From Flavobacteriales bacterium (lineage in GTDB: Bacteria > Bacteroidota > Bacteroidia > UBA10329), in contig JAIPBM010000032.1 in assembly GCA_021739695.1 (NCBI GenBank), positions 1 to 50,777 of the forward strand: a stretch of DNA of 50,777 nucleotides, written 5' to 3'. The notes below the pieces were generated by a model. That model was not told where the DNA came from, searched no databases, and saw nothing but the letters and a program-made list of their open reading frames with translations. This document shows positions 8,482-43,429 of the stretch, in pieces; positions within the stretch are counted from its first letter, which is position 1; each line of letters starts with the position of its first letter. The position numbers and the translations under genes are program-made.

Positions 8482-8571
8482 GACTTTGAGTTTTAAGGGT
8501 TCATAAATCAGATGCGCGCCATCCATTCTATAAAGTTCCTCAAGTCAATCGCGATAATCAATTCATTGTAA
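8482..8571 (-). promoter_or_regulatory. Leader/promoter region shared with the gene at 20075-21367
   Basis: Two 14-bp words, AGATGCGCGCCATC (8510-8523) and TCAATTCATTGTAA (8558-8571), recur upstream of the paralogue at 21398-21411 and 21446-21459. The spacing is exactly the same (48 bp start to start) and the distance to the start codon is nearly the same. Shorter matches (TAAAGTTC, TTCAxGTCTA) lie between and beyond them. This argues for a conserved promoter or 5'UTR. The rest of the 386-bp gap up to the tetR gene holds the tetR promoter and otherwise nothing I can name. Confidence 0.6.
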
Positions 8572-8819
8572 AGCGATAAATTTCAAGTCTACGAGTACGG
8601 GTTTTAGTTTGGTTGACACTCATTTTGAACTAAAACAGGAATGCTAATAATCACCAATAAGCTCATATTTAAAACACAGGTGTTAATTACAGGTCCAAAC
8701 TGGCAATAAGCACCGTTTCCGTGATTGAGATTGCGTGTGTTGATTACGTTTCAAGCAAATAATCTTGTTTCACGGTTCCTGAAAAATCTCTCGATTTTCA
8801 AGATTCAATTTGAAATAAT

Positions 8820-13498: not shown

Positions 13499-14317
13499 AT
13501 GTTCAACCAAGAAGACCTCAATAAACTCAACGAATACACTTTCGCGTTTTTGGAAGTGGAGCATACCGATAATGTACTGACGATTACGCTTAATCGTCCA
13601 GAGAAGAAGAATGCCTTGCATCCTGTAACGGCCAACGAGTTGGCGTTTGCGCTGACCTACGCCAAGCAGAACAAAGACGTTTGGGCGGTGGTGATCAAGG
13701 CCAACGGAGATGTTTTTTGCGCTGGTGCCGATCTGCAAGCATTCATGACGGGTGGTGGAGAGACGAACACAACTGTTCCGAAAGCGGATGGAGAAATTTT
13801 GATTGGAGAGCTTTTCAATCAATTGCATAAACCCTGCATTGCGCAAGTGGAAGGTGATGCGTTTGCAGGTGCTTTCTTGCTATTAGCTGGCTGCACGCAG
13901 GTGGTTGCCGCATCGAATGTCAAGTTTGGATTGCCAGAAGTGAAACGCGGCCTATTCCCTTTTCAGGTAATGGCTTCGCTGCTACAAGTCATGCCAGAAC
14001 GGAAGGCGCTGGATTGGTGTATTCAAGGATATACGCTTGACGCTCAAAAAGCAGCGTATTGGGGATTGGTAACCCATATTGCGGAACCCGGAAAAGTGGC
14101 TGACACGGTTCAGCGAATGATTGATGTCATTCTTGATAATTCGCCTACGGCCATTCGCATGGGATTGGAAGCGTACCAGCACATCAGAAGTGTCGACACG
14201 AAAGCGCAACACAGCTACCTTCAAGGCATGCTGATGAAAACGGTTCAAACGAAGGATGCGCAGGAAGGCATTATGGCTTTCAGGGAGAAACGGGAACCTA
14301 AATGGAGTAATGAGTAG
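13499..14317 (+). CDS. Enoyl-CoA hydratase/isomerase (crotonase) family, possible methylglutaconyl-CoA hydratase
   Basis: 272 aa crotonase-fold protein. Visible motifs: LTITLNRPEKKNALHP at the N-terminus, the first oxyanion loop GDVFCAGADLQAF (about 68-80), the second glycine loop GDAFAGAFLLLAGCTQVVAA, and FGLPEVKRGLFPFQV. The Glu in LPEV corresponds to one of the two catalytic acids of crotonase. The other, normally in the GGGxEL stretch, is replaced by a hydrophobic residue (GAFLLL), so simple hydration chemistry may be altered. In a leucine-type pathway the step after the carboxylase is 3-methylglutaconyl-CoA hydration, and its position fits that. Substrate is inferred from context. Confidence 0.82.
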   Translation: MFNQEDLNKLNEYTFAFLEVEHTDNVLTITLNRPEKKNALHPVTANELAFALTYAKQNKDVWAVVIKANGDVFCAGADLQAFMTGGGETNTTVPKADGEILIGELFNQLHKPCIAQVEGDAFAGAFLLLAGCTQVVAASNVKFGLPEVKRGLFPFQVMASLLQVMPERKALDWCIQGYTLDAQKAAYWGLVTHIAEPGKVADTVQRMIDVILDNSPTAIRMGLEAYQHIRSVDTKAQHSYLQGMLMKTVQTKDAQEGIMAFREKREPKWSNE

Positions 14318-14353
14318 TGAGATGTCAGATATGAGATATCAGATATCAGAACG

Positions 14354-14429
14354 CGTCATTGCGAGGAACGAAGCAATCTCGTTTTTGCTGACAGATTGCC
14401 ACGCTCCGCAGGCTCCGCTCGCAATGACG
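14354..14429. repeat. Inverted dispersed repeat (CGTCATTGCGAG...CTCGCAATGACG)
   Basis: Left arm CGTCATTGCGAGGAACGAAG...CAATCT (14354-14379) and right arm AGATTGCC...GCTCGCAATGACG (14393-14429) are inverted copies of one motif with a short loop. The same family occurs at 23365-23492 and, as a half-copy, inside mccA. The 325-bp gap between the hydratase and BKACE genes holds this repeat, the structured repeat that follows it and a copy of the GTTTCGAATTT repeat, and no gene. Confidence 0.85.
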
Positions 14430-14440
14430 TGTGGAATTGT

Positions 14441-14516
14441 GATGAGGCCCGCGTTAGGGATTGGAGCAAGCTGCCGTGCAGCGCGGAAAGCCCGACCCGC
14501 AGGGGAACGCCCAAAT
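14441..14516 (+). repeat. Structured repeat, copy 1 (possible small RNA motif)
   Basis: A 76-bp block that recurs at 17494-17572 with one substitution (GATTGGAGC versus GATTGAAGC) and a 3-bp insertion. It can fold: GCGTT/AACGC outer pairing, GGG/CCC, an inner stem GCTGC-CGT-GCAGC, and CCC-GCA-GGG. The core 'GGGATTG(G/A)AGC ... GCGGAAAGCCC' recalls, from memory only, Flavo-1-like RNA motifs of Flavobacteria. No open frame in it looks coding. Confidence 0.7.
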
Positions 14517-14642
14517 GATAAAGCACTAAAAACGAAACGTAAGTTCAACGGAGTTAAATAAAGAAGCACGAAACGGTTTCGAATTTGAGAGTTTAGGATT
14601 TCGAATTTGAACCCAAAAACATTAATAACTGAAGAAATAGAT

Positions 14643-15503
14643 ATGAGTAAGAAAGTGATTATTTCAGCATCTCTGACGGGCGTTCTCGCCAACAGGAAGC
14701 AATGTCCGTACATTCCCTACACACCAGAAGAAATTGCCGAGGAAGGTCGCAGAGCGGTGGAAGCTGGGGCGAGTATTTTACACATCCACGCGCGGAATGA
14801 CGATGGCACGCCTGCGTACGATGTGGAGACCTATGCGCGTATTATGGAAGAGGTGAAAAAGCGCACGCCAGATGCTATCATCAACTTCAGCACGGGCGCT
14901 ATTCACATAACACGAGAGGAGCGAATTGCGCACATTGTGGCGCTGAAACCTGACATGGCAGCCCTGAATATGGGGAGTATGAATTATGGTATCTATTCTT
15001 CGAAAGCGAAGAAGTTTTACCATGATTTCGTGTTCCAGAATTCGTTTACGGACATTCAATTTTACTTGGAGAAAATGAATGAAGCGGGTACGCGTCCTGA
15101 GATGGAAGTGTTTGATAACGGCCACGTGAATAATGCGATGCCGTTTATTGATATGGACATTCTGAAAAAGCCGTACAACTTCAGTTTCGTGATGGGCGTT
15201 TTGGGCGGATTGCCGCACAGTACGGCCAATATTCTGCACCAAAGTAGAACGGTTCCTGAAGGTTCTGACTGGCAGGTGATTGGCATCGGTCGTCAGCAGT
15301 GGGCAAGTCTGGCCGCTGGAATTACGATCGGTGGGAACATTCGCGCTGGGTTGGAAGACAACTTCTATCTGCCAGAAGGCGAAATGGCGAAGAGCAATGG
15401 CGAATTGATCGCTGCAGCTGCACAACTCACCCGAATGATGGGGCGTGAGGTAGCAAGCATTGCTGAGGCGAGAGAGACCTTGGATATTCCTTTGAGGAGT
15501 TAG
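14643..15503 (+). CDS. BKACE family (beta-keto acid cleavage enzyme, DUF849)
   Basis: 286 aa from the ATG at 14643 (MSKKVIISASLTGVLANRKQ); a start 12 codons earlier is open but lies in repeat sequence. BKACE enzymes are Zn-dependent and exchange a beta-keto acid with acetyl-CoA to yield acetoacetate plus a new acyl-CoA. The type reaction is 3-keto-5-aminohexanoate cleavage. Visible: TPEEIAEEGRRAVEAGASIL, the Zn-binding HIHAR motif (about 48-52), INFSTGA, AALNMGSMNYG and EVFDNGHVNNA. Length fits the family. No kamA, kal or kdd lysine-fermentation genes are nearby, so the classical lysine role is unlikely. In this cluster it may act on a keto acid of the branched-chain route. Substrate unknown. 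Confidence 0.88.
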   Translation: MSKKVIISASLTGVLANRKQCPYIPYTPEEIAEEGRRAVEAGASILHIHARNDDGTPAYDVETYARIMEEVKKRTPDAIINFSTGAIHITREERIAHIVALKPDMAALNMGSMNYGIYSSKAKKFYHDFVFQNSFTDIQFYLEKMNEAGTRPEMEVFDNGHVNNAMPFIDMDILKKPYNFSFVMGVLGGLPHSTANILHQSRTVPEGSDWQVIGIGRQQWASLAAGITIGGNIRAGLEDNFYLPEGEMAKSNGELIAAAAQLTRMMGREVASIAEARETLDIPLRS

Positions 15504-15526
15504 GTATTAGGAGTTAGCGATTAGCG

Positions 15527-15982
15527 ATGAGAACACTGACAATTTTATCTTTTCTCGTTTTACCGTTTTTCTGCTTTTCGCAGAACAACAATCCCAACTA
15601 TGATGAGGCGTTGGCGAAGGAGTTGAATGCCGATGATTATGGCATGAAGAGCTACATTTTCGCGGTGCTGAAAACGGGCCCTGCCAAGATTGAAGATAAG
15701 GCCGTTCTCGACAGTTGTTTTGCAGGTCATTTCTCGAACATGGCAAAGTTGGCGGAAGAGAAGAAGTTAGTGGTTGCTGGTCCGTACGGGAAGAACGACA
15801 ACGACTACCGCGGGCTGTTCATTTTTGATGTGGCTTCGAAAGAAGAAGCACAAGAATTGATGAAAGGCGATCCGTCCATTTCAATGGGTGTTTTTGAAGT
15901 GGAAATGTACGATTGGTATGGTTCGGCAGCATTGCCTGTTTATTTGGAGAATCACGATAAGATTTGGAAGCAAAAGCCATGA
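15527..15982 (+). CDS. Secreted YciI-like protein
   Basis: 151 aa. Signal peptide MRTLTILSFLVLPFFCFSQ (cleavage after SQ), then a YCII-related ferredoxin-like domain: YIFAVLKTGPAKI, a spaced DSCFAGHFSNMAKLAEEKKL, VVAGPYGKNDNDYRGLFIFD, SKEEAQELMKGDPSISMGVF and EVEMYDWYGSAALP. YciI relatives are small dimeric proteins with a conserved His/Asp pair; here H48 in AGHFSNM and D in GPYGKND...RGLF fit that spacing. Enzymatic role is poorly known. It follows the BKACE gene by 23 bp, so co-transcription is likely; a periplasmic protein in an acyl-CoA cluster is odd. Confidence 0.8.
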   Translation: MRTLTILSFLVLPFFCFSQNNNPNYDEALAKELNADDYGMKSYIFAVLKTGPAKIEDKAVLDSCFAGHFSNMAKLAEEKKLVVAGPYGKNDNDYRGLFIFDVASKEEAQELMKGDPSISMGVFEVEMYDWYGSAALPVYLENHDKIWKQKP

Positions 15983-15990
15983 GAAAACTG

Positions 15991-16076
15991 AACCGCGGAG
16001 ACGCTAAGATGTCGCAAAGAGCGCTGAGAATTATGCTTTGCGAACTCTGCGAAAGAAACTTTGCGCCTTTGCGGTT
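15991..16076. repeat. Palindromic repeat (AACCGCGGAGACGC...GCGGTT)
   Basis: The spacer before the first dehydrogenase starts with AACCGCGGAGACGC (15991-16004) and ends with GCGCCTTTGCGGTT (16063-16076). It has further CGCAAAG/CTTTGCG and CGCTGAG/CTCTGCG pairs inside, so it can fold as a long imperfect hairpin. A related half (AACCGCTGAGACGCGGAG) lies at 19198-19215, just before the terminator. Confidence 0.7.
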
Positions 16077-16088
16077 AGAAAAAATGAT

Positions 16089-17240
16089 ATGAGCTATTTC
16101 ACCGAAGAACATAATCAGTTCCGCCAGTCGCTGCGCGATTTCTTGCAGAAGGAAGTCGTGCCGAATGTGGATGAATGGGAGAAGACTGGAAATCCGCCTC
16201 GTGAGATATGGAAGAAATTTGGAGATATGGGCTATTTCGGGCTGCGTTTTCCGGAGAAATATGGCGGACTGAACTTGGATTTCTTCTATGATGTCATTCT
16301 GCTGGAGGAGTTGGCGAAAGTTAATTCTGCTGGAACATCTGCTGCACTTGGAGCACATTCGTATCTGTCGTTGGCGCATTTGAACAACGAAGGTTCGGAA
16401 GAACAGAAACAACAATATCTGGTTCCTGGAATTGCAGGTGAACTATTCGGTTGTTTGGCCATTTCGGAGCCAGGCGGAGGTTCGGATGTGGCTTCTATGC
16501 GGACAACTGCTGTGAAGGATGGTGACGATTGGATCATCAACGGAAGCAAGACATTCATTACGAATGGTGTGCTAAGCGATTACCTCATCATTTCCGCCAA
16601 AACGGAACCTGAGTTGAAACAGGCTGGCATCAGCATGTTTGTCGTTGATCGGAACACGAAAGGATTATCGGCTACGAGATTGGATAAACTCGGATGGCGC
16701 GCTTCTGATACGGCTGAATTGGCCTTTGATGAAATGCGGGTTCCAGCCAGCGCTTTGCTCGGAGCGGAGAACCAAGGTTTCTACTACATCATGCAGCAGT
16801 TTGCGTTGGAGCGATTGATCATGGCAATTGGTGGTGTGGCTGGTTCGGAATATGCACTTCAATATGGTTTGGATTACATGCGAGAGCGCGAAGCTTTCGG
16901 AAGACCGTTGACGAAGTTCCAAGAATTACGTCATCGCGTAGCGCAGTTGGCTGCGGAGATTGAGATGCAAAAGCAATTCGTGTATTATCTCTGTGACCGT
17001 TTCACCAAAGGAGAATACATCGTGAAAGAAGCGGCCATGGCCAAGCTTTTAGCTACGCAGCTTTCCGATAAAGTGACCTTTGAAGTCGTGCAGTTTTTAG
17101 GCGGCTACGGCTATATGGAAGATTACCAAGCCTCAAGAATGTTCCGAGATAGCCGACTTGGACAGATTGGTGGCGGAACGAGTGAAATAATGAAGGAGAT
17201 CATTGCCAAAATGGCGATTGATGAGGTGAAGTATAGCTAA
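16089..17240 (+). CDS. Acyl-CoA dehydrogenase (isovaleryl/long-chain type active site)
   Basis: 383 aa from the ATG at 16089 (MSYFTEEHNQFRQSLRDF); an upstream in-frame start would run through the repeat. It should be an FAD flavoprotein making the 2,3-double bond in an acyl-CoA and passing electrons to ETF. Motifs: GCLAISEPGGGSDVASMRTT (about 121-140), KTFITNG, ALERLIMAIGG with Glu241, EREAFGRPLTKFQ, and GGYGYMEDYQASRMFRDSRL. At the usual medium-chain catalytic position the sequence is IGGGTSEI (no YEGT), while Glu in LERL is where isovaleryl-CoA and long-chain dehydrogenases hold their base. That fits an isovaleryl-CoA-like step feeding the carboxylase. Close paralogue of the next large gene. 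Substrate inferred. Confidence 0.9.
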   Translation: MSYFTEEHNQFRQSLRDFLQKEVVPNVDEWEKTGNPPREIWKKFGDMGYFGLRFPEKYGGLNLDFFYDVILLEELAKVNSAGTSAALGAHSYLSLAHLNNEGSEEQKQQYLVPGIAGELFGCLAISEPGGGSDVASMRTTAVKDGDDWIINGSKTFITNGVLSDYLIISAKTEPELKQAGISMFVVDRNTKGLSATRLDKLGWRASDTAELAFDEMRVPASALLGAENQGFYYIMQQFALERLIMAIGGVAGSEYALQYGLDYMREREAFGRPLTKFQELRHRVAQLAAEIEMQKQFVYYLCDRFTKGEYIVKEAAMAKLLATQLSDKVTFEVVQFLGGYGYMEDYQASRMFRDSRLGQIGGGTSEIMKEIIAKMAIDEVKYS

Positions 17241-17284
17241 TTAGTTGATTAGGAAATTAGCGGATTAGCGAATGTGTTTTGAAA

Positions 17285-17482
17285 ATGGATTTGATTGGTA
17301 AAATAACTTGGATTTCAATGTTCTTAACACCGCTGGTTACGGTTCCGGTTGTTTGGAAATTGACTGACTGGGCCAAGTGGAAAAGGGTAATTGTTGCGTT
17401 GCTTCTGGCAGTAGTAACCTCAATTATTCTATATCAAGTTAGTATGGAAATCATATTTAGAGATGGAATGGGACCAGGATGA
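17285..17482 (+). CDS. Small two-helix membrane protein
   Basis: 65 aa from the ATG at 17285 (MDLIGKITWISMFLTPLVTV...). Two hydrophobic segments (about 8-24 and 37-55) flank a polar, basic loop with KLTDWAKWKR, giving a hairpin membrane protein; the tail is short and acidic/Gly-rich (FRDGMGPG). It sits between the two dehydrogenases, ahead of a structured repeat. No family recognised. The good hydrophobic pattern favours a real gene, but short length keeps confidence moderate. Confidence 0.5.
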   Translation: MDLIGKITWISMFLTPLVTVPVVWKLTDWAKWKRVIVALLLAVVTSIILYQVSMEIIFRDGMGPG

Positions 17483-17493
17483 TGAAATAAAGT

Positions 17494-17572
17494 GATGAGG
17501 CCGCCCGCGTTAGGGATTGAAGCAAGCTGCCGTGCAGCGCGGAAAGCCCGACCCGCAGGGGAACGCCCAAAT
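17494..17572 (+). repeat. Structured repeat, copy 2
   Basis: Second copy of the element at 14441-14516, with a 3-bp insertion near its left end (GAGGCCGCCCGCG versus GAGGCCCGCG) and one substitution. All stems are kept: GCTGC-CGT-GCAGC, CCC-GCA-GGG and GCGTT/AACGC. It lies in the same orientation, 57 bp ahead of the dehydrogenase-SCP2 start. Confidence 0.75.
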
Positions 17573-17629: not shown

Positions 17630-19189
17630 ATGTTTACAGAAGAACACAAATTATTCAGACAGGGTTTACGGGATTTCCTTGACCGTGAGGTGATGCCGAA
17701 TATTGACCAATGGGAAGAGGAGCAGCGGATGCCGAAGGATCTTTGGCCGAAGTTCGGTGAGATGGGCTATTTCGGATTGAATTACTCGGAGAAATATGGC
17801 GGAATTGATGCCGATTTCATGTATTCGGTCATTTTTATGGAAGAGATTTCGAAGTGCGAGAGTGGAGGATTCATGATCTTGCCTGCGGTGCAGCAATACA
17901 TGTCGTCTCCGTATATCTACAAGCACGGTTCGGAGTTCTTGAAAGAGAAATATCTGACGAAAGTGATATCAGGCGAGTGGATCGCCTGTATCGGAATTTC
18001 GGAGCCTGGAGCCGGTTCTGATGTGGCGAACATTCAGACCAAAGCCATTAAAGATGGCGACCATTATGTGGTGAATGGTTCGAAGACCTTCATTACGAAT
18101 GGTGTTTATGGCGATTTCGTTGTGGCGGTTGTGAAAACCGATCCTGCCATGGGCGCGGCTGGTGTGAGTTTGCTCATCATCGATCTGAATTCGGAAGGAG
18201 TAACGCGCAACAAACTCAAGAAATTGGGTTGGCACGCATCCGATACAGCTGAGCTGCATTTCGATAACGTGAAAGTTCCTGTCGAGAACCTGATCGGAGA
18301 TGAAGGTCAGGGTTTCTATTACCTGATGGGCGGTTTGCAAACCGAACGTTTGGTTGGAGCAATCGCTGGTTTCGCTTCGTGCGAATGGGCTATTCAGTAC
18401 ACGCTTCAATACATGAGCGAGCGTCAGGCGTTCGGACGGTCCATCAACAAGTTCCAAGTGTTGCGTCACAGAATGGCGCAGTTGATCTCGGAAGTGGAGG
18501 CAAGCAAGCAGTTCGTTTACCATTGCTGCCGAATGCATGATGCGGGCGAATACATCGTGAAAGAGTGTTCGATGGCAAAACTATTGACCAGCGAATTGGC
18601 CGAAAAAGTGATGACGCAATGCCTCCAGAGCTTTGGTGGCTACGGCTTCATGGAAGAATACAAGATGGCGCGTGCCTATCGCGATTGCCGTGTGGGAACC
18701 ATCGGTGGAGGTTCGAGCGAGATCATGCGCGAGATTATTGCCAAAATGGTCATAGACGATACTTCGTATCAACGCGCTGGATCAGTATCTTCAGCGCCCA
18801 CTTCGACAGGCTCAGCGCAAGCAAAGGCAAAGCCAGTTGAGGCTAAAAAGACAGAAACTAATCCTAATACAAACGATAAAAAACCAGTCATGAGTTTTGA
18901 AGCAATTGAGAGTGCAATTAAAGAGAAAGCAGCAGCAGCTAAGCCGCTAGGAAACACCTTGAAGTTCAACTTCGGTGAGCAGAATGTAATGTTGAACGGA
19001 ACGGGAGACAGCAACGTGGTAACCACCAACGATGCTACTGAAGCTCAGTGTACCGTTGATGTTGCAATGGAAGACCTAACAGCCATGCTGAAAGGCGAAT
19101 TGAACCCAATGAACGCTTTCATGAGCGGAAAGATCAAGGTGAAAGGCGACATGAGCGTGGCCATGAAGCTTGGAACCATTATGGGGTAA
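17630..19189 (+). CDS. Acyl-CoA dehydrogenase fused to SCP2 sterol-carrier domain
   Basis: 519 aa in two parts. Residues 1-380 are an acyl-CoA dehydrogenase close to the previous one (ACIGISEPGAGSDVANIQTK, QTERLVGAIAG with Glu239, SERQAFGRSINKFQ, GGYGFMEEYKMARAYRDCRV, IGGGSSEIMREI). Residues 421-519 are an SCP2 lipid-binding domain (GNTLKFNFGEQNVMLNGTGD, CTVDVAMEDLTAMLKGELNP, MNAFMSGKIKVKGDMSVAMK). A 40-residue Ala/Ser/Thr/Lys linker joins them and partly derives from a dispersed repeat (18801-18815). SCP2 domains hold acyl-CoA or lipid and could deliver substrate to the active site. The ATG at codon 421 could also act as an internal start for a free SCP2. Last gene of the cluster, followed by a terminator. 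Confidence 0.9.
   Translation: MFTEEHKLFRQGLRDFLDREVMPNIDQWEEEQRMPKDLWPKFGEMGYFGLNYSEKYGGIDADFMYSVIFMEEISKCESGGFMILPAVQQYMSSPYIYKHGSEFLKEKYLTKVISGEWIACIGISEPGAGSDVANIQTKAIKDGDHYVVNGSKTFITNGVYGDFVVAVVKTDPAMGAAGVSLLIIDLNSEGVTRNKLKKLGWHASDTAELHFDNVKVPVENLIGDEGQGFYYLMGGLQTERLVGAIAGFASCEWAIQYTLQYMSERQAFGRSINKFQVLRHRMAQLISEVEASKQFVYHCCRMHDAGEYIVKECSMAKLLTSELAEKVMTQCLQSFGGYGFMEEYKMARAYRDCRVGTIGGGSSEIMREIIAKMVIDDTSYQRAGSVSSAPTSTGSAQAKAKPVEAKKTETNPNTNDKKPVMSFEAIESAIKEKAAAAKPLGNTLKFNFGEQNVMLNGTGDSNVVTTNDATEAQCTVDVAMEDLTAMLKGELNPMNAFMSGKIKVKGDMSVAMKLGTIMG
18801..18815 (+). repeat. Repeat core in the dehydrogenase-SCP2 linker
   Basis: CTTCGACAGGCTCAG matches the core of the intergenic element at 24453-24466 (CTGAGCCTGTCGAA on the plus strand, opposite orientation). 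It codes for part of the linker residues SAPTSTGSAQA (about 388-398). The match is only 14 bp, so coincidence is possible but this word is a common intergenic repeat core. Confidence 0.55.
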
Positions 19190-19268: not shown

Positions 19269-19970
19269 CTATTTAGCCACCACAAACCGCTCTGTCAGAA
19301 GTTTGTCTTTCAACTGCACCGAAGCGAAATACACGCCATTACTCAATCCATCTAAGGGAATGGAAAGTCTGCTCAACGGAAGTTGTTTCTGTTCTAGAAC
19401 AATTCTTCCGCTGCTGTCCAAGATCCTTAGGCTCAGTGGCTCTTCTTTCAGATTCAAAAGATCGAGCGTTATTTGAGATGAAGCTGGGTTTGGGTAGAGG
19501 CCGAAATTTGAGATCACAGGTTCTTTTGGTAACTCAGTTGTAATTCGGCTTCCATAAATCGTTTCTACCCCGAACCCACAGCTGATGATACGGTAGTCAA
19601 CAGAAGCTTCCACTACAACTTCAGGTAATTCAACTCCCCCCTTCATCACTAGGTCAACTGTCTTTTCTTCGTCTTCCGCAATTTCAATATCCATGCTCTC
19701 GGCTAGTTCATATCCCACATAAGACACTTTCAATTTGTAGGTCCCAATCTTTTCTAAACAGAACTTATAACGTCCATCAAAATCGCTTACAACTCCTCCA
19801 ATTTGCTTTTCACCTTCGAACAGCACAACGTTAGCCAGAATCATCGGATCACTGGTCAGTTTATCGGTGATTGTACCACGAATGGTGGTGAAGCCGTCTT
19901 GCGCTGAACATGAGGATGAAACCAGCATTAGCCAGAACGAAATGGACAGAATATGAATGGAACTTTTCAT
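19269..19970 (-). CDS. T9SS-secreted CarboxypepD-reg protein
   Basis: 233 aa from the ATG at 19968-19970. Signal peptide MKSSIHILSISFWLMLVSSS, cleaved near CSAQ. A carboxypeptidase-regulatory-like beta-sandwich follows (about 28-110; IRGTITDKLTSDPMILANVV, VSDFDGRYKFCLEKIGTYKL, KVSYVGYELAE). Next is a short link with VEASVDYRIISCGFGVETIY, then a type A T9SS C-terminal domain (about 160-233; NFGLYPNPASSQITLDLL, RILDSSGRIVLEQKQL, GLSNGVYFASVQLKDK). It should cross the outer membrane by type IX secretion and become surface-bound or released. The last 60 residues are almost identical to those of the next gene. A possible lipobox (SSSC) is atypical, so type I cleavage is preferred. Confidence 0.85.
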   Translation of the reverse strand: MKSSIHILSISFWLMLVSSSCSAQDGFTTIRGTITDKLTSDPMILANVVLFEGEKQIGGVVSDFDGRYKFCLEKIGTYKLKVSYVGYELAESMDIEIAEDEEKTVDLVMKGGVELPEVVVEASVDYRIISCGFGVETIYGSRITTELPKEPVISNFGLYPNPASSQITLDLLNLKEEPLSLRILDSSGRIVLEQKQLPLSRLSIPLDGLSNGVYFASVQLKDKLLTERFVVAK

Positions 19971-20074: not shown

Positions 20075-21367
20075 TTATCTTGCCACCACAAATCGCTCTG
20101 TCAGAAATTTGTCTTTCAACTGCACCGAAGCGAAATACACGCCATCACTCAATCCATCTAACGCAATGGAAAGTCTGCTCAACGGAAGCTGTTTCTGTTC
20201 TAGCACAATTCTTCCGCTGCTGTCCAAGATCCTAAGGCTCAGTGGCTCTTCTTTCAGATCATGCAGTTCGAGATTGATGAGCGAACTGGCAGGGTTTGGG
20301 AAAATGGAAACAGATGGTTCAACCTCCAGCAGTTTTGGTTTTTCAGCTTCCAGAGAATCCTCCAGAACCATTGTTGTAACCCTACGGCAACAGGAATTAC
20401 CTCGACCGCAAATGTTTAGAATGTCTCTTCCAGTAACCGTCTTTTTACAGCAACTACCATCTTTTTCAATCAATGGGCAGCAAAAGGCCTCCACAACTAT
20501 TTCGCTAAGAAGAATGCCTGGCTGCAGCTTAAAATCGGCAGACGATATTTTGCTCGACTTAATATTGATTTGATGCTGCTCGCTAGTATATCCGACAGAA
20601 GAAACTTTAAGGTCGTATGTTCCAGGATTTAGGTCAACAATCTTGTAGCCACCATCGAAGTCTGTTGCTGCCCCTGAAATCACCTTTCCATCTTTAAGTA
20701 CGGCAACATTTGTGAATGGTAGCGGCTCACCTGATTCTTTGTCTCGAATTACTCCAATCAGTTGTCCCTTCAAATCCCGACCAGCGTGAGAAATAAAAAG
20801 ATCATAGTCACCTTGCGGAATATTCAGCAAATCATATTGTCCCGACAACCGTGACGTTTTGTTTGGGTTGAATTCGCCAGACAATCTCAAAACCACTTTG
20901 GCGTTGGGAATGGGAACATCAGTTTCTGAATTTCGAAGCACCCCAGCAATGATGTCAATCCTGCCATCAGAAACGAACGAGTTTGGTTTTACCCGATTTT
21001 GCTGAATTCTACCCAAACCTCTGGATGAAATCAGAGGAAATGGTAGCGTAATGTCAGACAAAGACCCAGATACGGAAATGACTTTGGAGAACTCAACAAA
21101 TGCCACGTAGCCTTCTCCCATTGCCGAGACGTGAAGTTTTCCACCAGATAAGTTTTGAATACAGAATAAGCCATCTTTTCCGGTAGTTAGTTCTACAAGG
21201 GTTTCGTAGTCTTGAATCAAGTCTTTGCTGCCATTCAGCGATTCTCCAGCATCAAATTGAAACTGGGTTTTCCCGTATTCAGAACTAGACGCGAACTGTG
21301 CCAAGGTGATAGTGGTCATAAACAGTTGATTGATGACGCTTAGTAAAACGAGTAGAGTTTTTTTCAT
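20075..21367 (-). CDS. T9SS-secreted protein with two CarboxypepD-like modules and Cys-rich plug remnant
   Basis: 430 aa. Signal peptide MKKTLLVLLSVINQLFMTTI...LAQ. A first beta-rich region is followed by two tandem carboxypeptidase-regulatory-like units (about 135-200, IIAGVLRNSETDVPIPNAKV; about 205-290, LIGVIRDKESGEPLPFTNVA, DFDGGYKIVDLNPGTYDLKV). A stretch parallel to the TonB plug of the VWA protein follows (PLIEKDG, TVTGRDILNICGRG, VTTMVLED), but the plug body is missing and about eight Cys occur in it (FCCPLIEKDGSCCKKTV, GRGNSCCRR). A T9SS type A domain ends the protein (SIFPNPASSLINLELHDL...). Its leader DNA matches that of the gene at 7954. Surface protein of unknown role. Confidence 0.83.
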   Translation of the reverse strand: MKKTLLVLLSVINQLFMTTITLAQFASSSEYGKTQFQFDAGESLNGSKDLIQDYETLVELTTGKDGLFCIQNLSGGKLHVSAMGEGYVAFVEFSKVISVSGSLSDITLPFPLISSRGLGRIQQNRVKPNSFVSDGRIDIIAGVLRNSETDVPIPNAKVVLRLSGEFNPNKTSRLSGQYDLLNIPQGDYDLFISHAGRDLKGQLIGVIRDKESGEPLPFTNVAVLKDGKVISGAATDFDGGYKIVDLNPGTYDLKVSSVGYTSEQHQINIKSSKISSADFKLQPGILLSEIVVEAFCCPLIEKDGSCCKKTVTGRDILNICGRGNSCCRRVTTMVLEDSLEAEKPKLLEVEPSVSIFPNPASSLINLELHDLKEEPLSLRILDSSGRIVLEQKQLPLSRLSIALDGLSDGVYFASVQLKDKFLTERFVVAR

Positions 21368-21459
21368 GATTTCTAATTTTTAAAGGGTTAGTAAAACAGA
21401 TGCGCGCCATCTTTCCCTTAAAGTTCGTCATGTAAAAAACCTTTGTCAATTCATTGTAA
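21368..21459 (-). promoter_or_regulatory. Leader/promoter region shared with the gene at 7954-8481
   Basis: Carries AGATGCGCGCCATC (21398-21411) and TCAATTCATTGTAA (21446-21459) in the same order and spacing as at 8510-8571, plus TAAAGTTC between them. The remainder of the 273-bp gap to the AidB-like gene shows only small hairpins (for example GAACTC-TTTT-GAGTTC near 21600). Confidence 0.6.
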
Positions 21460-21640
21460 TGGCATAAGTTTCATGTCTAAGGGCCGCACCTTGAACTGCA
21501 GTCCATGGTGGTTTGTACTTGAATGATGTGGATGTAAATTACCAAGGAGGCCATTTGGTAAAACGGCTCAATTATTACAGTTCTAAGCGCTGTAATGAGA
21601 ACTCTTTTGAGTTCGAAACGATGCTAAAACGTAAACGGTT

Positions 21641-42013: not shown

Positions 42014-43429
42014 ATGACCCAAGAGGAACTACAACAGCTGATTGCACAAGGTGAAGGATACTTCACCGAGTTCAAGCGTAGGTTGAATTCTGATTTCAAA
42101 AAAGAGATCGTGTCGTTTGCCAATGCCAGTGGCGGCAAGGTTTTGCTTGGGGTTAATGATGACGGTACGATTCCGGGAATAAATGCAGATAACGACCTGC
42201 GTTCTCAGATACAAACCGCTGCGCAGAGTTGCGATCCACCCGTAAGAATTGACCTTGAGTTGAATGGAAATGTGCTGATCGTGCATGTTCCAGAAGGAGA
42301 TCGAAAGCCTTACAGAACCACCGAAGGTTTTTATCTACGTGTTGGGCCGAATGCACAGAAAATGACCACGGAGCAGATTCGTGATTTCATGGAATCGGAA
42401 GGGCGCATCAGGTTTGATGAGGTAGTTAGAAAGGACGTGGATTACCGAAGCACCGTTTCCGAACGGTTGATTGATCGTTTTCTGGCCATGTCGGGCATTA
42501 AGAACGCTTTTCAAAACCGTGAGCACATTCTTCATAGTCTTGGGGTAGTCAAGTCCATTGACAACAAGACCTATTTCAATAATGCGGGTATTCTCTTTTT
42601 TACCGAGCGTCCCGGCTTCATACATCCGCAGGCAACAATCACCTGCGTGTCGTTTGCTGGATCGGAAAAGGTGGATATTCTTGACCGAAAGGATTTTGAT
42701 CAGGATCTGATAACGTCCGTTGAATCTGCCATGGCATTCATGAAACGGCATTTGAATGTGGCTGCCGAGATCAAAGGATTGCAACGGACAGATAAGTTGG
42801 AATTGCCCGAAGTGGCATTGCGCGAAGCATTGGTAAATGCCGTAGCGCATCGCAGTTACTTAGAGGCAGGAGCACGCGTGATGGTGGAGGTTTTTGCGGA
42901 CAAGGTGGTTATTTCGAGCCCAGGCGGATTACCCAAGGGACTGCAATGGAAAGACTTTGGCAAGTATAGCATGGCGCGCAATCCGCTGCTGGCCGACCTG
43001 TTTCTCCGTGTCAAACTCATTGAGCGCTTGGGCACGGGCGTCAACCGTATTAAAGCGGCACTAAAGACAGCCGAATTGCCCGAAGCCGACTTTCATGCCG
43101 ATGGTTTCTTTGCCGTTACCATGCTCCGAACAAATGGTGGTGCAATAGGTGGTACAATAGGTGGTACAATAGGTGGTACAATAGGTGGTACAATGGGTGG
43201 TCAATTAGGTGGTCCAATGGGTGGTCCAATCCAAACACCCGAACTTACAGAGGCTCAAAGAAATGTGCTGAATATGTTGGCAGAAGCACCACAACGCTCA
43301 CTGCGGAACACTGCAAAAGAACTAGGTATCAACTTATCTGCGCTTGTAAAACACATTGATGCATTGAAAGAAAAAGGCGCCATAGAACGCGTTGGCGGCA
43401 CACGCGGCCATTGGAAAGTGAAGCAATGA
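42014..43429 (+). CDS. AlbA_2 (Schlafen-like) DNA-binding protein with GHKL-type domain and wHTH
   Basis: 471 aa. AlbA_2 domain at about 8-118 (EGYFTEFKRRLNSDFKKEIV, SFANASGGKVLLGVNDDGTI, GFYLRVGPNAQKMT); a helical middle; a HATPase_c_4/GHKL-like part at about 265-340 with the N-box E271-A-L-V-N275 and VVISSPGGLPKG, IERLGTGVNRI; a Gly-rich tandem repeat (375-409, IGGT units); and a C-terminal winged helix (VLNMLAEAPQRSLRNTAKEL). Such proteins are frequent in type I restriction operons, where they may act as regulators or as extra effectors. The ATGA overlap with hsdS shows tight coupling. The 12-bp repeat could alter linker length. Confidence 0.9.
   Translation: MTQEELQQLIAQGEGYFTEFKRRLNSDFKKEIVSFANASGGKVLLGVNDDGTIPGINADNDLRSQIQTAAQSCDPPVRIDLELNGNVLIVHVPEGDRKPYRTTEGFYLRVGPNAQKMTTEQIRDFMESEGRIRFDEVVRKDVDYRSTVSERLIDRFLAMSGIKNAFQNREHILHSLGVVKSIDNKTYFNNAGILFFTERPGFIHPQATITCVSFAGSEKVDILDRKDFDQDLITSVESAMAFMKRHLNVAAEIKGLQRTDKLELPEVALREALVNAVAHRSYLEAGARVMVEVFADKVVISSPGGLPKGLQWKDFGKYSMARNPLLADLFLRVKLIERLGTGVNRIKAALKTAELPEADFHADGFFAVTMLRTNGGAIGGTIGGTIGGTIGGTMGGQLGGPMGGPIQTPELTEAQRNVLNMLAEAPQRSLRNTAKELGINLSALVKHIDALKEKGAIERVGGTRGHWKVKQ
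43133..43228 (+). repeat. In-frame 12-bp tandem repeat
   Basis: Eight units of a 12-bp motif, four of them exact ATAGGTGGTACA (43145-43192), flanked by degenerate ones (AATGGTGGTGCA, ATGGGTGGTCAA, TTAGGTGGTCCA, ATGGGTGGTCCA). They encode IGGT-like tetrapeptides in the linker before the winged helix. Unit length is a multiple of three, so copy-number change keeps the frame. Confidence 0.95.

Follow-up and report, generated by a model that had tools for sequence, protein, structure and literature searches.

Flavo-1 (RF01705; Weinberg et al. 2010, PMC2864571) is an abundant family that has been without a known function since 2010. One source names it among abundant small RNA (sRNA) families with a blank function entry (PMC9029176), and a study of F. 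psychrophilum places Flavo-1 matches sense or antisense alike to transcribed regions, many of them untranscribed and some coinciding with 5' transcribed regions (PMC9723704). No mechanism is proposed in the portion of the open-access Flavo-1 literature that we examined. The leading region of conjugative plasmids is also known for such elements as the Frpo/ssi sites, which are single-stranded promoters and initiation sites (PMC11541004), and the repeated CUP elements of IncN plasmids, described as sites bound by the ArdK repressor (PMC6289460); the REP/RAYT palindromes are small, folded, dispersed and intergenic (PMC3733652, PMC6006769). Here we describe a folded element present in two near-identical copies on a 50,777-nt contig (JAIPBM010000032.1; "the window" denotes this whole stretch) from the draft genome (GCA_021739695.1; 4.24 Mb, 98% complete) of a Flavobacteriales bacterium. 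We tentatively propose that Flavo-1, filed as a small RNA of Bacteroidota, may be the chromosomal face of a wider family of folded single-stranded DNA (ssDNA) sites that serve conjugative plasmids and some phages in several bacterial groups while their DNA is single-stranded, the window copies being a retained short-hairpin subtype.

Two copies with a compensated three-way junction

As an earlier note on this DNA had described, two near-identical copies of 76 nt (14441-14516) and 79 nt (17494-17572) lie on the same strand and differ by one G/A substitution (GATTGGAGC versus GATTGAAGC) and one 3-bp GCC indel. Their identity reaches two bases further 5' (GTGATGAGGCC...) than given there. Chance is ruled out for the pair, since the shared stretch covers 77 nt at 95% identity, with a spacing of 3,056 nt. 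We built a covariance model, R1, from both copies and those of two related genomes (G001 and G008), with the structure given by hand. The copies and the parts of their fold are as follows.

14439-14516, + strand: copy 1, between the enoyl-CoA hydratase and beta-keto acid cleavage enzyme (BKACE) genes; R1 match of 102.2 bits at 14445-14516
14451-14455, + strand: copy 1, 5' arm of P1 (GCGTT), pairing with AACGC at 14506-14510; double changes in 5/5 pairs (81 copies)
14457-14493, + strand: copy 1, P2, made of GGG, an A.G mismatch, TT/AA, a GRA/GGA internal loop, GC/GC, an AA bulge and a GCTGC-CGT-GCAGC hairpin; covariation
14496-14504, + strand: copy 1, P3, second hairpin CCC-GCA-GGG; third pair seen as C-G, G-C, A-T and T-A
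14506-14510, + strand: copy 1, 3' arm of P1 (AACGC), followed by CCAAAT
17492-17572, + strand: copy 2, between a small open reading frame and the second acyl-CoA dehydrogenase gene; R1 match of 102.6 bits at 17501-17572
17507-17566, + strand: copy 2, P1-P2-P3 three-way junction; the minimum free energy structure with DNA parameters is the covariation structure

The fold is a three-way junction of an outer stem (P1), an inner stem (P2) and a hairpin (P3). The stems proposed from the letters alone (GCGTT/AACGC, GCTGC/GCAGC and CCC/GGG) all exist, but covariation supports two stems where a single CCC/GGG had been listed: the GGG/CCC of P2 and the separate CCC-GCA-GGG hairpin. The earlier note had allowed for a plain DNA repeat without covariation among its copies; covariation is strong. 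Across 81 Bacteroidia copies the partners are paired in 98.4% of cells and 13/20 pairs are doubly changed, with a signal of 108 cells, where shuffles give 27 and slides no more than 20. The plasmid and phage sets described below give it independently (24 versus 3.6 and 28 versus 5.7); alignment of these sets was guided by the model and so tends to reproduce its structure, an effect for which the controls allow only partly. Compensatory changes include GGG/CCC to AGG/CCU and UU/AA to UG/CA in P2, and U-A to G-C in P1; in G008, P3 is lengthened to CCAGCC-TGA-GGCTGG. All listed exact matches to the window-type hairpin carry either GCTGC/GCAGC or GCTAC/GTAGC, never a mixture. The A.G mismatch is found in 69/81 copies and swapped to G.A in 10/81, and GNA is kept on both sides of the internal loop in 77/81. 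This strand-specific swap, together with the GNA/GNA loop, implies that one strand matters, and a duplex or cruciform is an unlikely functional form because only one of the strands has the purine mismatches. The asymmetry of G.U over A.C was discarded as a means of choosing the strand, its numbers (13 versus 5) being too small.

The likeness to Flavo-1 that the earlier note pointed out holds through cross-matches between models, although Rfam's own test failed. RF01705 gave no match anywhere in the window at its gathering threshold (42 bits), and none to the copies when stretches of 401 and 301 bp were scanned at E<=10; in the whole genome it gave 29 matches at E<=10, 24 of them above the cut-off. 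R1 found 26 places in the same genome, and since 20 of the 24 other than the window copies are RF01705 places (E down to ~1e-8), the copies are relatives of Flavo-1. We consider it highly probable that they belong to an extended Flavo-1 family as a subtype with a short hairpin, despite failing the formal test. Both types share the inner stem, the GNA/GNA loop flanked by GC pairs, the A.G mismatch, the dispersed intergenic habit and, in this genome, reciprocal places. In contrast, Flavo-1 has a second GNA/GNA loop and a long A/T-rich apical hairpin where the window copies have the AA bulge and GCTGC-CGT-GCAGC, and its Rfam model lacks the outer stem and the second hairpin, the three-way junction being a larger fold than that model.

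The genome-wide count suggested in the earlier note returned the exact window-type core only twice in this genome, and about 35 elements of both types by our count over the R1 and Rfam match lists. R1 gave about 90 matches in the genus, where one genome (G007) had no element by R1 or by the Rfam model, and matched in 107/295 genomes of the class. The window-type hairpin occurs in 17/395 genomes from nine families; a reversed control pattern was absent.

Relatives on conjugative plasmids and phages

Used as a query, the 3' half of the element matched plasmids and phages, with full or near-full elements on phages and on plasmids of Moraxella, E. coli, Klebsiella, Shewanella, Bacteroides and Phocaeicola. 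One E. coli plasmid element matched 1,485 plasmid records, of which 1,330 are typed as conjugative, and in E. coli had 216 plasmid places and no chromosomal ones; plasmid matches are often partial, at 60-80% identity, and these counts mix close and distant relatives. The neighbouring genes encode antirestriction proteins, SSB, RadC, DUF932, ParB-like proteins and methyltransferases, a typical leading-region set. In 15/15 plasmid loci the majority of genes run opposite to the element (126 antisense versus 31 sense genes), and extra copies within one locus are co-oriented. Judged by the complete gene order of pKP18-2138-2 (relaxase, T4CP, oriT gap, stb genes, leading region), the folded strand of its three elements is the transferred strand, and Moraxella and Acinetobacter loci (L288, L305) agree. 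On the IncN plasmid pEcNDM1 a weak element is sense to its neighbours and still on the transferred strand. Shewanella pS18501, whose oriT side is unassignable, was excluded from this evidence.

These relatives occur in several copies between leading-region genes, on the transferred strand where it is readable, a probable likeness in placement to Frpo/ssi sites that concerns the plasmid relatives and not the chromosomal window copies. They differ from Frpo/ssi in that the conserved core has no recognisable -10/-35, and the short window-type hairpin is G+C-rich. With CUP they share the character of repeated upstream elements of the leading region. Identity with the IncN CUP elements was rejected, the match to plasmid R46 not being significant and weak CUP-like matches in one locus (L296) being discounted; integron attC was considered and dropped because its terminal boxes have opposite polarity. 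There may also be a resemblance to the primosome-site motif AAGCGG.

Among phages, related elements were found in a 6.4-kb microvirus contig (capsid PF02305), further microvirus records (seven examined) and an inovirus, and a Microcystis phage carries the window-type hairpin with compensated stems. A virion-strand rule for microviruses was abandoned, being broken by 3/8. In four phage contigs (L308, L309, L311, L313) the element comes immediately after the stop codon of a large phage gene and is antisense to it; this gene is terminase-like by inspection, with no Pfam match.

Chromosomal copies and the form in which the element acts

Genes were called by a simple hexamer method with this genome as its training set, and 73/75 copies in the genus lie outside them. 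The 64 classified copies occupy 35 tandem, 27 divergent and 2 convergent gaps, with 39, 16 and 9 expected by length (more finely, 15.7 divergent and 8.9 convergent). Tandem copies lie close to the upstream stop codon (median 16 nt) and keep about 80 nt away from the next start.

An element is present in the gap of copy 1 in G001 and G008 too, that is, at one site common to three species, and missing from this gap in G003, G004, G006 and G007. The core of copy 1 is ~90-93% identical across species, four-fold sites of BKACE are 54-60% identical, and the flanks are unalignable; among chromosomal copies this retention is the sole direct functional evidence. Such conservation is not general, since at other sites the orthologues are for the most part hardly better conserved than unrelated copies. 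Copy 2 was found only in this genome, and four relatives (G001, G004, G006, G008) lack it in the corresponding gap; because it also carries the extra 5' bases of copy 1, it probably arose by recent local copying. The 8-bp repeat AAATAAAG on either side of copy 2 was distrusted as a target duplication, the element normally ending in CCCAAA.

In what seems to be the same intergenic gap in two species (L165 and L213) it has opposite orientations, which suggests independent insertion or inversion. In genome G196 (C1 10-6212 and 3142855-3149056; L317) inverted R1 elements flank a duplicated 6.1-kb unit with tRNA-Ile and tRNA-Ala, probably rRNA operons.

Folding energies were computed with RNA and with DNA parameters. 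The former gave no support for the fold of either window copy (z +0.5 and -0.3) and were dropped, as uninformative, as proof of the fold. The DNA parameters return precisely the covariation structure for each window copy but not for the complement; over 122 copies, the folded strand is favoured over its complement by DNA parameters (p 1e-16) and barely by RNA parameters (p 0.075).

With modest confidence, we favour a folded single DNA strand, not an sRNA, as the functional form. The element is an intergenic unit of roughly 70-150 nt whose + strand folds into the three-way junction, with a variable cap hairpin on P2. A widely conserved DNA-handling protein, of the primosome, primase or RNA polymerase type, may bind this strand once it is exposed, and the site may work as a single-strand initiation site or single-strand promoter of the Frpo/ssi type. 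In the case of plasmids, the strand that folds would be the one entering the recipient, and chromosomal copies would be dispersed descendants still constrained to fold, copy 2 having most likely been copied from copy 1 along with ~10 nt of 5' flank.

Several results weigh against this proposal. On plasmids, the direction of the transferred strand was deduced from gene order with oriT unmapped, several plasmids match only at weak scores, and R1 has no significant match on R46, a classic IncN plasmid. Microvirus strands are mixed, with five elements on the coding (virion) strand and three opposite. Chromosomal copies favour neither gene strand (in tandem gaps, 20 are sense and 15 antisense), and a replication-strand bias was dropped when 10/20 copies fell on the lagging-strand template in the one complete genome examined (G196, strand assigned by hand from GC skew). 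The conservation of copy 1 could also be due to gene conversion or re-insertion, folding energies prefer DNA to a modest degree that depends on the parameters, and no partner protein for the element was found.

A non-autonomous REP/MITE-like dispersed repeat without host function, whose folded single strand is recognised by some transposase that copies it so that only foldable copies spread, is a possibility we take seriously while doubting it. It would make the window pair one recent copy event, consistently with the ~35 copies scattered over the genome, the restriction of copy 2 to this genome, the gaps without copy 1 in four relatives, the intergenic placement with depletion from convergent gaps, and the presence of other palindromic repeats in the same gaps of relatives. 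However, no Y1/RAYT transposase was found in this genome, which is 98% complete, Y1_Tnp counts in 59 genomes show no correlation with copy number (rho 0.00), and there is no convincing target duplication; mobilisation of the RAYT/REP kind was rejected on the first two counts. The three-way junction also sets the element apart from REP/RAYT palindromes, which are simple hairpins. The fixed orientation on plasmids and the strong retention of copy 1 over three species would also be unexpected of inert repeats.

We think it unlikely that the element acts as a structured RNA, the class in which Rfam places Flavo-1, whether as an sRNA or as part of an untranslated region, in this case within the mRNA of the acyl-CoA cluster. 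The earlier note had framed the copies in this way, and of that framing the strong covariation stands while the RNA nature is not established. The covariation and the strand-specific non-canonical pairs fit RNA, both window copies are sense to the genes, and the two sources cited at the outset place some F. psychrophilum matches at 5' transcribed regions and list Flavo-1 among abundant sRNA families. On the other side, the F. psychrophilum matches lie in either sense and many are untranscribed, 27/64 classified copies occupy divergent gaps, those in tandem gaps lie in both senses, and plasmid mRNA would mostly carry the complement of the folded strand. A transcription-related element beside promoters, insulator or terminator-like and acting as double-stranded or extruded DNA, would agree with the proximity of tandem copies to the upstream stop, the enrichment in divergent gaps and the position after the large phage gene. 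We hold it to be very improbable, for the element has no U-run, duplex DNA leaves the strand-specific A.G mismatch unexplained, and convergent gaps are avoided, unlike what is seen for terminators.

We thus rank the ssDNA site ahead of a functionless mobile repeat, and that ahead of RNA. The link of Flavo-1 to a larger fold, to a subtype missed by Rfam and to transferred-strand positions on gammaproteobacterial conjugative plasmids yields a directly testable function. It also suggests that RNA catalogues may include entries that are in fact single-stranded DNA with a structure.

Host cluster and other repeats of the window

The cluster around the copies is one of leucine/acyl-CoA catabolism, with carboxylase subunits, an enoyl-CoA hydratase, BKACE and two acyl-CoA dehydrogenases, all on the + strand. 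Pfam assignment of the neighbours bore out the earlier placement of both copies, in the same orientation and sense to the cluster genes, in the order enoyl-CoA hydratase, copy 1, BKACE ... acyl-CoA dehydrogenase, copy 2, acyl-CoA dehydrogenase.

13499-14317, + strand: enoyl-CoA hydratase/isomerase gene, upstream of copy 1 (PF00378, E 7.5e-46)
14345-14430, no strand given: palindromic repeat (CGTCATTGCGAG...CGCAATGACG) not related to the element, immediately 5' of copy 1; fold z -3.3
14643-15503, + strand: BKACE gene, downstream of copy 1 (PF05853, E 4.7e-96)
16089-17240, + strand: acyl-CoA dehydrogenase gene, upstream of copy 2 (PF00441/PF02771)
17630-19189, + strand: acyl-CoA dehydrogenase plus SCP2 gene, downstream of copy 2 (PF00441/PF02036)

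The palindromic repeat at 14345-14430 and copy 1 follow each other in identical order in G008. A further inverted repeat (ACCGCGGAGACGC...CTTTGCGGTT) lies at 15989-16080, and its type also occupies the gap between the enoyl-CoA hydratase and BKACE genes in G006, as well as the dehydrogenase gap of G006 and G008. Elsewhere in the window, an intergenic 101-nt repeat with 76% identity (8491-8591 and 21379-21479) is probably a common 5' region of secreted-protein genes. A 225-nt repeat with 88% identity lies inside two adjacent genes (19270-19494 and 20076-20300) and matches similar C-terminal sorting-like ends, and a 12-nt GGTGGT-type tandem repeat lies within an open frame at 43118-43225.

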